22,455 nucleotides of DNA from positions 1 through 22,455 of IMG/VR virus record IMGVR_UViG_3300012928_000048, one strand, 5' to 3'. This document shows positions 299 through 3,683 of this stretch, piece by piece (the stretch's first letter is position 1; each line of letters opens with the position of its first letter). This DNA is from a virus. The notes beneath the pieces were generated by a model. That model searched no databases, had not been told where the DNA came from, and worked only from the letters and a program-made list of their open reading frames with translations. Both the position numbers and the translations under genes were made by a program.

Positions 299-634
299 AT
301 GGCTGAAGATATTGGGCAAGACGCTAATATATTTCCTGACGGGTTACCTGTATTTATCTATACATTCTTAGAACACGATGATGATGGTGTCTTACAGCAT
401 GAGACTACTCTTTGTATAGAAGGAGAAGAAGACGTTATTGTTACCAAGGGGTTCTACGAGATTATAGATGATATAAAAGAGGAACACGCAGATAATAACG
501 ACTACAATGCACTATTTGAAATGGCTGCAGAGCTAAACAAAGAAGCTGAGAGGTTACGGGAAGAAGCGGAAAGAATAGAAAACAGTACCAGAAGTGTAGC
601 TGATCTATTTAACGCTAATGCACCAACAGCTTGA
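299..634 (+). CDS. Acidic hypothetical protein with C-terminal coiled coil
   Basis: I do not recognise this 111-residue protein. It is rich in Asp and Glu, with an N-terminal half that looks like mixed beta structure and a charged heptad-like helix at roughly residues 70-100 (Leu-Asn-Lys-Glu-Ala-Glu-Arg pattern) suggesting a coiled coil. It has no signal peptide or membrane segment. A purine-rich CAGGG eight bases before the ATG can serve as ribosome binding site. It is first in the transcript from the promoter at 240 and its end overlaps the endonuclease VII gene by 17 bases, so the two are probably translationally coupled. Small acidic proteins in first position are often early host-interaction factors, but that is only context. 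Confidence 0.7.
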   Translation: MAEDIGQDANIFPDGLPVFIYTFLEHDDDGVLQHETTLCIEGEEDVIVTKGFYEIIDDIKEEHADNNDYNALFEMAAELNKEAERLREEAERIENSTRSVADLFNANAPTA

Positions 635-1034
635 TTTATTTGGTTTTACAGACTTACCCCTTGAAGGGGATACTAAGGTTTGTATAAAGTGCAAGGAAGA
701 GAAACCCCTAGCAGCATTTGGCAATAGTTCTGGGGCTAACTATAAGAGGCCTGAGTGCAAGGAGTGCAATAGGGAGTTGTCTAGGATAAGAGATAATCTT
801 AGGGCTACCCACGGTATGCCAGACGAGGACTACAGGTGTCCTATCTGTTGCAGAGGGGCTGAAGAGGTAAAAGGCAAAGGGGGCAAGAACAATGGCCCTT
901 GGGTGCTAGACCACGACCACAAGACGAATGAATTTAGGGGATGGCTATGTCATACCTGTAATAGAGGGCTTGGGGCTTTTGAAGATGATCCCATGAGGAT
1001 GCTTAAAGCCGTAGCCTATGTGGAGAATACATAA
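618..1034 (+). CDS. Recombination endonuclease VII-like HNH nuclease
   Basis: This 138-residue protein matches the endonuclease VII family, which in T4 (gp49) cleaves Holliday junctions and other branched DNA before packaging. Visible landmarks are a first zinc-binding set C22-x2-C25 and C47-x2-C50, a second pair C74-x2-C77 with C111-x2-C114, and between them the nuclease core with D98, H99, D100, H101 (LDHDHKT), followed by the family signature FRGWLCHTCNRGLGAFEDD. The closing Asn (N115) after the last cysteine pair also fits. The ATG at 618 has no clear Shine-Dalgarno and overlaps the previous gene, so coupling is likely. The extra N-terminal CxxC pair is a common addition in phage versions. 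The family call is firm. The precise substrate is inferred from T4. Confidence 0.93.
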   Translation: MHQQLDLFGFTDLPLEGDTKVCIKCKEEKPLAAFGNSSGANYKRPECKECNRELSRIRDNLRATHGMPDEDYRCPICCRGAEEVKGKGGKNNGPWVLDHDHKTNEFRGWLCHTCNRGLGAFEDDPMRMLKAVAYVENT

Positions 1035-1068
1035 CGGGTATGGTTGGTCCTTACTACCTAGTTATGTA

Positions 1069-1112
1069 GCTCCTTGGTATAATGCTTAGAGTGTTTATCA
1101 AGGAGCATTATA
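1069..1112 (+). promoter_or_regulatory. Overlapping inverted repeats enclosing the DUF1127 promoter and Shine-Dalgarno
   Basis: GCTCCTTG (1069-1076) is the exact complement of CAAGGAGC (1099-1106), which contains the Shine-Dalgarno AAGGAG (1100-1105) of the next gene. TATAATGC (1078-1085) is the exact complement of GCATTATA (1105-1112), which ends right at the ATG. The two pairings are interleaved, so they would form alternative or pseudoknotted structures. Both left arms lie upstream of the predicted start of the promoter at 1075-1083. Only read-through RNA could therefore fold and hide the ribosome binding site. Confidence 0.65.
1075..1083 (+). promoter_or_regulatory. Extended -10 promoter for the DUF1127 gene
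   Basis: TGGTATAAT is a perfect extended -10 element (TGn plus TATAAT at 1078-1083). No good -35 is found at the usual distance, which is acceptable for extended -10 promoters. Transcription would begin near 1090, leaving a leader of about 23 bases that keeps the AAGGAG at 1100 accessible. The ten-base motif TGnTATAATG recurs at 1494, 2918 and 14042. Confidence 0.6.
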
Positions 1113-1265
1113 ATGTTAAGACGATTACTACATAGATGGGAAGAATATCAGAAGCGAAGAGTAGCTTACTGGCAACTACAGAACCTAACTGACCAAGAAC
1201 TTAATGATATCGGCATAAGCCGTGGGGATATATATAGGGTAGCATACAAAGACCCTATCCGATGA
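1113..1265 (+). CDS. DUF1127 (YjiS-like) small basic protein
   Basis: This 50-residue gene is preceded by AAGGAG seven bases before its ATG. The protein begins with a basic helix (MLRRLLHRWEEYQKRR) and continues with the DUF1127 signature: a helix ending in LQNLTDQELNDIGISRGDI, where Leu, Asp, Leu, Asp-Ile-Gly and Ser-Arg are the family's conserved positions, then an Arg-Val-Ala tail. DUF1127 proteins are usually about 45-70 residues, so this copy is full length. The family is widespread in alphaproteobacteria. One Rhodobacter member, CcaF1, has been reported to bind RNA and affect small-RNA maturation and stress responses. A role in altering host RNA metabolism is inferred from that. The gene has its own promoter and its stop overlaps the next ATG (ATGA). 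Confidence 0.85.
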   Translation: MLRRLLHRWEEYQKRRVAYWQLQNLTDQELNDIGISRGDIYRVAYKDPIR

Positions 1266-1406: not shown

Positions 1407-1473
1407 CTCAACCGACAATTCATTATACCACTAGAACGCAAGTTCGTCAATATTAAATTCATTAATTAGGTGA

Positions 1474-1530: not shown

Positions 1531-1815
1531 ATGTCCCTTAATTTATATTATATCAGAGCCGCAATAGAAGATCGAACAGGACAGCGTTTGTCCTTTGATA
1601 AGATCAAACAATATCTTGTAGAAGAAAAGTTAATTACTCAGAAAGAGTTAGACGATAACCCAATGGCCCACGAGTTTGCAGGTTATGGTAGGTATTACTT
1701 CTACACCCCTGAAACCAAGAACGACTTTACTGTCGATGTACCCAATGACCCTAAGTCTTATTTAAACAGAGATGCTAGGGAATACTTTGTAGAGGAAGAA
1801 TTTGATGAAAGCTAA
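1531..1815 (+). CDS. Hypothetical protein, possible winged-helix/HTH fold
   Basis: This 94-residue protein is preceded by AGGAAG four bases before the ATG and by a good promoter. Residues 5-36 (starting LYYIRAAIEDRTGQ, with LSFDKIKQYLVEEKLI following) read as two or three short helices of the kind seen in small DNA-binding or adaptor domains of phages. The C-terminal half is rich in Tyr, Phe and acidic residues (EEEFDES at the end). I know no named family. It heads the train of small genes and its last codons overlap the next gene, so it is probably co-expressed with the basic proteins behind it. Confidence 0.72.
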   Translation: MSLNLYYIRAAIEDRTGQRLSFDKIKQYLVEEKLITQKELDDNPMAHEFAGYGRYYFYTPETKNDFTVDVPNDPKSYLNRDAREYFVEEEFDES

Positions 1816-2029
1816 AATGGCAAACTGTGGAGCTAGTGTTAAGCCTAACCGAAAGGCTAGAATGTATGGTGGCGGCATGGCTAAGAAGAAAATGGATATG
1901 TATGGGGGCGGTATGCCCATGAAGAAAAAGAAGAAGAAGTCTATGTCTTACAACATGGGTGGAATGCCTATGAAGAAGAAAGAAGATATGGGCATGGCTA
2001 AAGGAAACATGAGCATCAAGAACAGGTAG
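1805..2029 (+). CDS. Lys/Gly/Met-rich repeat protein
   Basis: This 74-residue, very basic, low-complexity protein is built from repeats of the form MYGGGM-x-KKK: Tyr-Gly-Gly-Gly-Met segments each followed by a lysine run, seen three times, the last degenerate (NMGGMPMKKK). An upstream TTG at 1802 is in frame, but ATG 1805 is better placed, six bases after GAGGAAG (1792-1798). The gene overlaps the previous one by 11 bases. It has no fold or catalytic motif. Such proteins occur repeatedly in marine phage genomes as unknowns. Nucleic-acid binding, DNA compaction, or a packaged core protein are plausible from charge alone. The GGMAKKK ending of the protein at 2925 looks related. Confidence 0.75.
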   Translation: MKAKMANCGASVKPNRKARMYGGGMAKKKMDMYGGGMPMKKKKKKSMSYNMGGMPMKKKEDMGMAKGNMSIKNR

Positions 2030-2515: not shown

Positions 2516-2685
2516 TGTGGTTTTTAATCTGGTTACAATTTTTACACGGTGAGTTTGAATACTATCATATTGGGACTTATGGATCGGAAGAAAACTGTAA
2601 GGCTCAGTTAGAAAAATCTAAAGTCTTGATTACTAACTCTGCCAGTGCAGTAGAATGTTTTGAGGTAGATCGCGGTGGCAACTAG
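2515..2685 (+). CDS. Small exported-type protein with two cysteines
   Basis: This 56-residue gene overlaps the previous stop in a TAATG junction. The protein opens with a hydrophobic, Trp-rich segment (MWFLIWLQFL) that could act as signal or anchor. It then has a short Tyr-rich stretch and two cysteines, C28 and C48, separated by a helix. The pattern (hydrophobic start, E-x-C about 28-36, second Cys near the end) is shared with the genes at 3683 and 4039. A periplasmic disulfide-bonded microprotein is the simplest reading. The function is unknown. Support comes from the junction, the composition and the family resemblance. Confidence 0.62.
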   Translation: MWFLIWLQFLHGEFEYYHIGTYGSEENCKAQLEKSKVLITNSASAVECFEVDRGGN

Positions 2686-2920
2686 AATTAATAAGGCTAA
2701 GATGCCTTGTAACAAACCCCGTAGAACTTCTGGTGGGTCCAAAAAGTTTGTGGTCAAAGCCTGTAAGAATGGCAAAGAGAAGATAATTCGCTTCGGGGAC
2801 CCAAATATGAAAATTAAGAAGAGCAATCCTAAGAGGCGCAAGTCTTTCAGAGCTAGGCACAAGTGTGACACAGCCAAGGATAAATTTACAGCAAGATATT
2901 GGTCATGTAAGAAATGGTGA
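2675..2920 (+). CDS. Conserved basic phage protein with FGDPNM and RYWSCK motifs
   Basis: This 81-residue basic protein begins at a GTG (2675) eight bases after GAGGT (2662-2666). An ATG at 2702 is an alternative. It contains the block GDPNMKIKKSNPKRRKSF, then FRARHKCDTAKDK and ARYWSCKKW at the C-terminus. I recall this highly conserved block from many cyanophages and other marine phages, where it is found near capsid or packaging genes and left unnamed. Conserved His-63, Cys-64 and the late Cys, together with C12 and C30, could bind a metal. Charge and the RRKSFRARH core suggest contact with DNA or RNA. Recognition as a real conserved gene is strong. The function is not known. Confidence 0.85.
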   Translation: MATRINKAKMPCNKPRRTSGGSKKFVVKACKNGKEKIIRFGDPNMKIKKSNPKRRKSFRARHKCDTAKDKFTARYWSCKKW

Positions 2921-2926
2921 TATAAT
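2918..2926 (+). promoter_or_regulatory. Possible extended -10 element overlapping a start codon
   Basis: TGATATAAT (TGn plus a perfect TATAAT at 2921-2926) is the same motif as the promoters at 1075, 1494 and 14042, but it overlaps the ATG at 2925. A start near 2933 would lie inside the gene, so it could only serve the genes from 3154 on. The -35 region is poor (TTGGTC at 2899, 16-base spacer). It may be chance. Confidence 0.3.
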
Positions 2927-3152
2927 GGCAAAAACTAGTAAACATTACAAAAAAGATGGTACGCTATACACTGGGGGTATGCATAAAATGTCTGATGGGA
3001 CTTTGCATACTGGTAAAACTCATACAGCAAGTAGTCAAAAACTTTTTCACATGAAAGACCTTAGTGAAACAGCCAAGAAGAAAGCAAAAGCAAAGATGAG
3101 TGCTTATGTTGGCGGTATGGCTAAAAAGAAGAAAAAGAAGAAGAAGACCTAG
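2925..3152 (+). CDS. Basic protein with LHTG motif and poly-Lys tail
   Basis: This 75-residue protein has the start ATG 2925, five bases after the previous stop, with GGTGA at 2916-2920 as a weak ribosome binding site. An earlier in-frame start inside the previous gene (2865) is less likely. The N-terminus holds a duplicated small motif: KDGTLYTGGMHKM and SDGTLHTGKTHTA. Then come SSQKLFHMKDLS and an Ala/Lys helix, and it ends with GGMAKKKKKKKKT. The GGMAKKK ending echoes the protein at 1805. I recall the TG-(x)-H-K-M / LHTG / LFH pattern as a small conserved marine-phage family of unknown role. DNA contact is likely from charge. Confidence 0.78.
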   Translation: MAKTSKHYKKDGTLYTGGMHKMSDGTLHTGKTHTASSQKLFHMKDLSETAKKKAKAKMSAYVGGMAKKKKKKKKT

Positions 3153-3153
3153 T

Positions 3154-3345
3154 ATGGCTGCTAGAGTTAAGAAGAAGTCTACCCCTAAAAAGAAGGCAAC
3201 TAAGAAAGATGCCTGTTATCATAAGGTAAAGAGGGCGTACACCAAGAATGGTGGAACGTGGCCTTCAGCTTATGGTTCAGGGGCCTTAGTAAAGTGTAGG
3301 AAGGTAGGCGCTAAGAATTGGGGAAAGAAGAGTAGGGCAACTTAA
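3154..3345 (+). CDS. Basic protein with PSAYGSGALVKCRK motif
   Basis: This 63-residue protein starts at ATG 3154, directly after the previous stop and a purine-rich tract that can act as ribosome binding site. After a Lys-rich N-terminus it has DACYHKVKRAY, then WPSAYGSGALVKCRKVGAKNWGKK. The PSAY-x-SG-x-LV-x-C-R-K-x-GA-x-NWG block is a motif I know from small phage and giant-virus proteins, possibly filed under DUF5872 or a relative. I am not sure of the accession. Conserved Cys and Trp suggest a compact fold. The function is unknown. It is one of six consecutive basic proteins. Confidence 0.78.
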   Translation: MAARVKKKSTPKKKATKKDACYHKVKRAYTKNGGTWPSAYGSGALVKCRKVGAKNWGKKSRAT

Positions 3346-3346
3346 T

Positions 3347-3472
3347 ATGGCTAGATTAACTAAGAAGCAACAAAAGATTGCAAAAGTTGCACCACCTAAA
3401 AACAAGATAACTGGAGCAGACTTCAAAAAGCTAAGAAAGCGCAAGACCAATGGCGGCAAGAAAAAAGTCTAA
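3347..3472 (+). CDS. 41-residue basic protein with ITGADFKKLR motif
   Basis: The ATG at 3347 is one base after the previous stop, with AGGG (3334-3337) as a plausible ribosome binding site. The 41 residues begin MARLTKKQQKIAKVAPP, then KNKITGADFKKLRKRK and a Lys tail. I recall the pattern 'LT-x-KQ-x-KIA-x-VAPP-x-x-KITGADF-x-x-LR' as a small conserved protein of marine phages and cyanophages. This makes the gene credible despite its size. Its 3' end overlaps the next gene by 23 bases in another frame. The function is unknown. The composition fits nucleic-acid or scaffold contact. Confidence 0.78.
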   Translation: MARLTKKQQKIAKVAPPKNKITGADFKKLRKRKTNGGKKKV

Positions 3473-3683
3473 CAGTCTAAGGACTTGGTTTTCACAGAAT
3501 AACGGCAAAGGTTGGGTGGACTGCAAAACAGGTAAGCCCTGTGGACGTAAATCTAGAACCAAGAGTAAAAGGGGATACCCTGCCTGTAGGCCTACAATGG
3601 CTCAGTGTAAGACAGCTAAAGGTAAGGCAGCTACTCGTAAGAAAACTTCTTCTAAAAGAGTAAGTTGGAAAAAGAAGAAGTAA
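3450..3683 (+). CDS. Basic protein with WF...PCGR...YPACRP motif
   Basis: This 77-residue protein begins inside the previous gene (ATG 3450), so translation is probably coupled. The core is SLRTWFSQNNGKGWVDC, KTGKPCGRKSRTKSKRGYPACRP, then a further Cys and a Lys/Ser-rich tail. The series WF-x-W-x-D-C, PCGR and YP-x-CRP is a recognisable small domain of phages and large DNA viruses that I associate, uncertainly, with DUF5872. Four cysteines (C25, C31, C46, C53) may bind zinc. In some viruses I recall this motif near or fused to the PSAY motif found in the gene at 3154. Here they are separate. The function is unknown. Confidence 0.78.
   Translation: MAARKKSNSLRTWFSQNNGKGWVDCKTGKPCGRKSRTKSKRGYPACRPTMAQCKTAKGKAATRKKTSSKRVSWKKKK

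Follow-up and report, generated by a model that had tools for sequence, protein, structure and literature searches.

The question raised by this locus is whether a promoter and one arm of an RNA hairpin can coincide in such a way that the Shine-Dalgarno (SD) sequence of the gene that follows is hidden in RNA entering from upstream genes and free in RNA begun at the promoter itself. HMO-2011-type roseophages are a very abundant marine group, and their hosts are Roseobacter-type bacteria. The window, by which we mean the whole stretch of DNA analyzed, is a 22,455-base virus record that carries packaging and structural genes (terminase, portal, capsid) and has relatives among the HMO-2011-type roseophages, CRP-738 and CRP-235 for example; the replication genes are missing from this 22-kb fragment, and its likeness to this type is read from the remaining part. 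The window and the CRP phages, of which CRP-1, CRP-2, and CRP-3 have been placed in the HMO-2011 type (PMC6918029), have in common a DUF1127 gene with its promoter module and the gene order DUF1127, small genes, terminase, portal, capsid. The small ORFs that precede the terminase gene in the window (1802-2029 and 2675-3683) are lysine-rich, several of them with GGGM and poly-lysine stretches.

Going beyond the original prediction, we identified the gene controlled as DUF1127, and its match to PF06568 scores 39.8 bits where the gathering cut-off is 23.3 (Table 1). The same gene is labeled merely "hypothetical protein" in most other CRP records and has no annotation in CRP-13 (L088), where its ORF lies at about 2459-2620. 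In the CRP genomes, small co-directional genes at the genome end lie on one side of DUF1127 and the terminase and structural genes on the other, a position that would form a natural border between early and late genes.

Table 1. Positions of the features of the window, and hairpin arms of relatives (left arm/right arm)
Feature	Sequence	Position	Strand	Remark
Endonuclease VII gene		618..1034	+	Pfam PF02945 5.3e-15; PHROG endonuclease VII 1.8e-24
Upstream element	CATAACGGGTATGG	1030..1043	+	overlaps endonuclease VII stop codon; CGGG 43 nt before -10
Left (anti-Shine-Dalgarno) arm	GCTCCTTGGTA	1069..1079	+	also spacer and first part of local -10
Extended -10 box, local promoter P2	TGGTATAAT	1075..1083	+	from sequence; on left arm
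Predicted transcription start, P2		1089..1091	+	7 nt after -10, sigma-70 spacing rule
Right arm	TATCAAGGAGC	1096..1106	+	contains SD AAGGAG 1100-1105
DUF1127 gene, 50 aa, gene controlled		1113..1265	+	Pfam PF06568 3.8e-10
Convergent promoter, extended -10	TTGACG-17-TATAAT	1422..1450	-	11/12 consensus matches; points back at DUF1127
Arms, CRP-235	AAACTCTCCTTAGT/ACTAAGGAGAGTTT
Arms, CRP-207	ACTATCTCC/GGAGATAGT
Arms, CRP-9	CTACTCCT/AGGAGTAG
Arms, CRP-13	GTCTCCG/CGGAGAC
Arms, CRP-212	ATTACCT/AGGTAAT
Arms, CRP-603	CTATGTTCAT/ATGAACATGG			pairs with start codon
Arms, L145	TATATGTAC/GTACATATA

The original prediction held that a complement of the left arm covers the SD, and this is what we observe: GCTCCTTG (1069-1076) and CAAGGAGC (1099-1106) are exact complements over 8 bases, and the pairing extends to a full helix of 11 bp in which 1069-1079 meets 1096-1106 with one G-U. 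A 6-bp upper stem closes the loop, and the SD lies 7 nt ahead of the ATG at 1113. The fold of 1069-1115 reaches -20.0 kcal/mol; its shuffled versions average -7.5, and none of the 200 did as well (z -4.9). Folded alone, 1090-1140 gives -4.3 kcal/mol and a z of +0.37, which is no notable structure. When the ribosome-binding region was kept fixed and the sequence upstream of it was shuffled, an SD-overlapping helix score of at least 8 arose in 2.1% of shuffles. The computed energy needed to open the SD of the window falls from 12.3 kcal/mol in read-through RNA to 3.0 kcal/mol if the RNA starts at about 1090. An Rfam scan of the window gave no match at gathering score. The SD-covering hairpin in the window is confirmed as real.

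A second pairing had also been put forward as a competing structure. The letters of TATAATGCT (1078-1086) do match those of AGCATTATA (1104-1112), but the match is not conserved, and the interleaved pairing of TATAATGC with GCATTATA, at -9.9 kcal/mol, is half as stable as the -20 kcal/mol stem and is disrupted in L002 and L004, two of four close relatives, both of which read GCATTAAA. Being both weaker and broken in relatives, it was rejected as a competing switch.

If the hairpin is to act on read-through RNA, such RNA must come from upstream. Two co-directional ORFs lead up to the hairpin, the stop codon of the endonuclease VII gene lies about 34-35 nt ahead of the left arm, and no terminator was predicted between that gene and 1069; nor is there an intrinsic terminator near the hairpin, where a T-run site is absent. 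The endonuclease VII gene region would be a likely source of read-through RNA. The promoter at 240, which had been proposed as this source, was rejected because relatives keep its TTGACA and not its -10 (TAAAGT becomes TAAAGG).

The local promoter P2 has its extended -10 box on the left side of the hairpin, as predicted, and no recognizable -35 in the window. Sigma-70 promoters start transcription about 7 nt downstream of the -10. Because the -10 sits on the left arm, RNA from P2, with its predicted +1 at about 1090, would lack that arm. A TATAAC, TATAAT, or close variant stands at the corresponding place in nearly all clusters of relatives, and TATAAC is made credible as a -10 by TTGACA-17-TATAACT ahead of other CRP-1 genes (gp20 and the coat gene). 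Relative to the -10, the left arm may abut it, overlap it, or come before it. Two arrangements occur (arm after the -10, or arm before the -10 as in the window), and in each of them the arm runs no further than the predicted start. Where the arm follows the -10, its last base or two coincide with the predicted start, so the proposed gate needs a start within 1-2 nt of the rule-of-thumb position.

The relatives in question were drawn from viral contigs and from the 11 named Roseobacter phages with a DUF1127 gene (CRP-1, 2, 3, 9, 13, 207, 212, 235, 345, 603, and 738); for genome contigs, a single protein served as the query. This gave 206 upstream regions from about 200 contigs, which fall into 52 clusters of upstream sequence. 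The layout is found ahead of DUF1127 in all 11 named carriers and in nearly all of the 52 clusters. The hairpin is clear in most of the named phages, with CRP-2 and CRP-603 pairing the start-codon region and not the SD, and one arm nearly always includes the SD or the start codon. The loops measure 6 to 41 nt and share no sequence that is evidently conserved; several of the large loops hold an extra small hairpin, e.g., GGTAGCAAAAGTTACC in CRP-1 (L092). Stems are weak in some clusters (L006, L058, and L121), and the SD is still harder to open there in read-through RNA. Another phage group (L069-L081 except L070) was left out of the covariation tests as not the same module: its DUF1127-like gene overlaps an Hsp20-like gene, its TCCTCGTAA/TTACGAGGA arms surround the SD inside coding sequence, and no promoter was seen. 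At a distant phage locus, L208 (upstream of 675), a peroxiredoxin-like gene lies upstream and a long SD hairpin surrounds a TATAAT.

We scored helices with G-U pairs admitted, as a strict Watson-Crick-only count overlooks stems that contain G-U. When left arms were swapped among clusters with the arm after the -10 (38 clusters, 26 distinct left arms), none of 20,000 permutations reached the observed pairing, the true-partner total being 199.5 and the permutations having a mean of 152.4 and a maximum of 178.5. Among the nine representatives of the window type, with the arm before the -10, 3 of 20,000 permutations were as good. Single pairs of modules tell the same: L130 and L298 differ at 2 of 48 positions, which together make one pair changed doubly from A-T to G-C, and L120 differs from L116 by two swapped pairs. 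Near neighbors among the 194 unique modules gave three double compensations, along with one-sided changes that kept the pairing in 20 cases and broke it in 25. Arm pairing is not absolute, as one-sided changes also occur; overall, the arms vary with compensation, and the covariation that the original prediction had looked for is present alongside one-sided and broken pairs. That the arms change letters together makes the device almost certainly real, as judged by sequence comparison.

The hairpin is restricted to DUF1127 within these phages when compared with the other genes tested. A helix score of at least 7 over the SD was found in 29 of 52 DUF1127 clusters and in 1 of 83 other SD-bearing genes of CRP-1, CRP-235, and CRP-738, and the same score was reached in 6% of shuffled upstream regions and in 1 of 19 bacterial chromosomal DUF1127 genes. 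The upstream regions of these 19 bacterial genes are without the phage layout, and a host-derived regulatory region was rejected. Opening the SD takes 7.28 kcal/mol in read-through RNA and 1.06 kcal/mol in local RNA for 48 DUF1127 representatives, compared with 1.77 and 1.71 kcal/mol for 75 control genes (p about 5e-19), and the difference between long and short RNA has a median of 6.26 kcal/mol for the DUF1127 representatives versus 0.00 for the controls (p about 1e-20); both p-values overstate independence because the clusters are related by descent, and the permutation and near-neighbor tests correct for shared ancestry only in part. The energy was greater in read-through RNA at all 188 of 188 loci.

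A further feature, also beyond the original prediction, is an element that lies at a fixed distance upstream of the promoter. In 46 of 49 clusters the ATAACGGG element, as CATAACGGGTAT or CATAACGGGGTTGCA, precedes the arm-side -10 by 42-45 nt, while the sequence between the element and the -10 is largely unalignable. Exact scans for the two versions across 2.9 million viral contigs matched at least 185 stretches. In 155 of the matches listed, DUF1127 lies within 450 nt and the -10 is correctly spaced; one further match combines DUF1127 with a variant -10 (156 with DUF1127 in all), three have a -10 where DUF1127 was not found, and 26 have neither, so that among these matches the element appears essentially private to DUF1127 promoters. 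The fixed distance to the -10 suggests an activator site, which the absence of a -35 in the families with a single -10-like copy fits, and we regard the element as a candidate site for a phage activator, with the promoter probably activated. The signature of ATAACGGG, about 43 nt, and TATAAY gives a handle for seeking this activator.

About a third of the clusters, counted by eye, have a second TATAACTA 15-17 nt upstream, often preceded by TTGCAT at 17 nt. This extra copy may be either a promoter or part of the activator site. RNA begun there would carry the left arm, which is a point against the gate. Whether or not a family has the extra copy, the element stands at the same distance from the arm-side -10, and in single-copy families the sole promoter-like site, which has no -35, is on or beside the arm.

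Taken together, we propose that HMO-2011-type roseophages carry a cis-acting translation gate that silences DUF1127 in read-through RNA, and we consider this reading likely. Transcripts entering from upstream genes would carry both arms and fold into the hairpin, so that the SD of DUF1127 would be hidden and the gene not translated. RNA from the promoter just ahead of DUF1127, whose -10 lies on or next to the left arm, would start no earlier than where that arm ends and leave the SD free. DUF1127 would then be made only once its own promoter, presumably a later one, is on, probably via the element about 55 nt before the start, and timing would be the presumed purpose of the gate. The original prediction, that the SD is hidden only in read-through RNA by the coincidence of promoter and left arm, is thus strongly supported by a layout conserved in dozens of diverged phages and by covarying arms, and the start on which the word "only" depends is a predicted one. 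In a fuller form, which we offer tentatively and with rather less confidence, a phage-activated promoter (element at about -55, no -35) and an anti-SD arm would be combined in the same 60 bp as one cis module; DUF1127 would be silent in RNA from upstream and would become active only once a switch, phage-made or phage-triggered, had been thrown.

The same arms could be read in other ways. The hairpin might be part of the normal DUF1127 mRNA and work as a switch in every transcript, with a protein, a small molecule, temperature, or DUF1127 protein itself, bound to its leader, to open it; the second upstream TATAACTA could start such RNAs, and some DUF1127 proteins are described as RNA-binding (CcaF1, PMC10253847). 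Against this, single-copy families have a promoter-like site only on or beside the arm, the constant spacing of the element refers to the arm-side -10 with or without the extra copy, and the loops are free in length with no conserved sequence apparent. A switch on all transcripts needs no coincidence of arm and promoter, so we favor the RNA gate and think such a switch unlikely. Still less probable, to our minds, is a reading of the inverted repeat as a repressor-bound DNA operator surrounding the promoter. The arms do flank the -10 and the start region, and the fixed-distance element indicates that proteins probably act at the locus, but arm letters diverge with compensation, one arm lies nearly always on the SD or start codon, which operator binding does not require, and an operator would not tolerate arm spacing as varied as that found here, whereas such loops fit RNA. 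A fixed-spacing operator was rejected on this variability.

Antisense control by the downstream convergent promoter, with the hairpin secondary, we rate as improbable as the operator. This promoter is conserved in L002-L005, L014-L017, L084 (CRP-738), and the CRP-235 group (L082), and it may give an antisense RNA over DUF1127 as a second layer of control, but it is present in some subgroups only, while the hairpin is present in nearly all, and it leaves the covarying arms unexplained. Back to back with it in the window lies TTGCCT-17-TATAAT with an extended -10 (1474-1502), largely conserved in L002-L007, which probably drives the ORF at 1531-1815. Least credible of all is a chance complementarity between the -10 box and the purine-rich SD. 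CT-rich and GA-rich stretches do pair readily, and a score of at least 6 arises in 17% of shuffles, but chance is disfavored by the arm permutations, the control genes, the bacterial DUF1127 genes, and the double changes between near neighbors.

If the translation gate is as proposed, DUF1127, a family of host-physiology regulators (PhoR partner, RNA-related), would be under an unrecognized cis module shared by abundant marine phages. That the layout is kept through extensive sequence turnover suggests strong selection for silence of DUF1127 until its own promoter fires. The phosphate sensor PhoR is bound by DUF1127 proteins (PMC12501420), which by analogy offers a possible reason for careful timing of DUF1127 in phages of nutrient-poor sea water. 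Cellular relatives of the phage protein act in phosphate sensing and RNA metabolism, and the gate would point to the stage at which the phages bring it into use. With CRP phages in culture together with their hosts, the gate is open to direct test. We found no account of such a gate for phage DUF1127 in the open literature, the scope of our search (subscription journals lay outside it), and the RCA-phage genome papers examined mention neither DUF1127 nor promoters nor hairpins.

To our knowledge, a few T4 genes and a single Bacillus gene are the known cases of gating by a promoter in a hairpin, and the marine phage group considered here, a very abundant one, appears to have evolved it on its own. 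The long early RNA of T4 gene e, soc, and I-TevI folds an SD-hiding hairpin whose 5′ arm DNA holds the promoter, and RNA from the late promoter is without the 5′ arm and is translated, as has been experimentally proven (PMC3014915). The likeness to gene e, which the original prediction had invoked, holds by analogy as a type of mechanism: here too a hairpin covers the SD or start codon, and the -10 overlaps, abuts, or lies just downstream of the 5′ arm, with the start being predicted. The promoters differ in class, those of T4 being late promoters (TATAAATA, gp55) and those of the roseophages sigma-70-like (TATAAT/TATAAC) with an element about 55 nt upstream, and the phage group and the gene are others, with no sequence relation seen. 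TATAAATA as a late promoter in the arm is absent from the window and the clusters; only the distant L208 has it, upstream of the left arm, and the logic of the gate may be reversed there. The roseophage module is thus not a member of the T4 late-promoter-controlled family (e, soc, I-TevI) and appears to have evolved separately. In Aeromonas phage Aeh1, the ribosome binding site of mobE, a homing endonuclease gene of this T4-like phage, is likewise concealed by an RNA hairpin (cited in PMC3014915). For Bacillus subtilis sigG, it is proposed that a large hairpin keeps read-through RNA of the operon upstream from being translated, a hairpin that RNA begun at the gene's own promoter cannot form (PMC5942855); this is the same gating logic in a cellular developmental gene with other sequence and other promoters. 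A Sinorhizobium meliloti DUF1127 gene is controlled by leader-RNA attenuation through translation of an upstream ORF and probably Rho-dependent termination (PMC12218461); thus DUF1127 is under leader-RNA control in that alphaproteobacterium and, as we propose, in these phages, where the control would take the form of a promoter-in-arm hairpin that the S. meliloti gene does not have.
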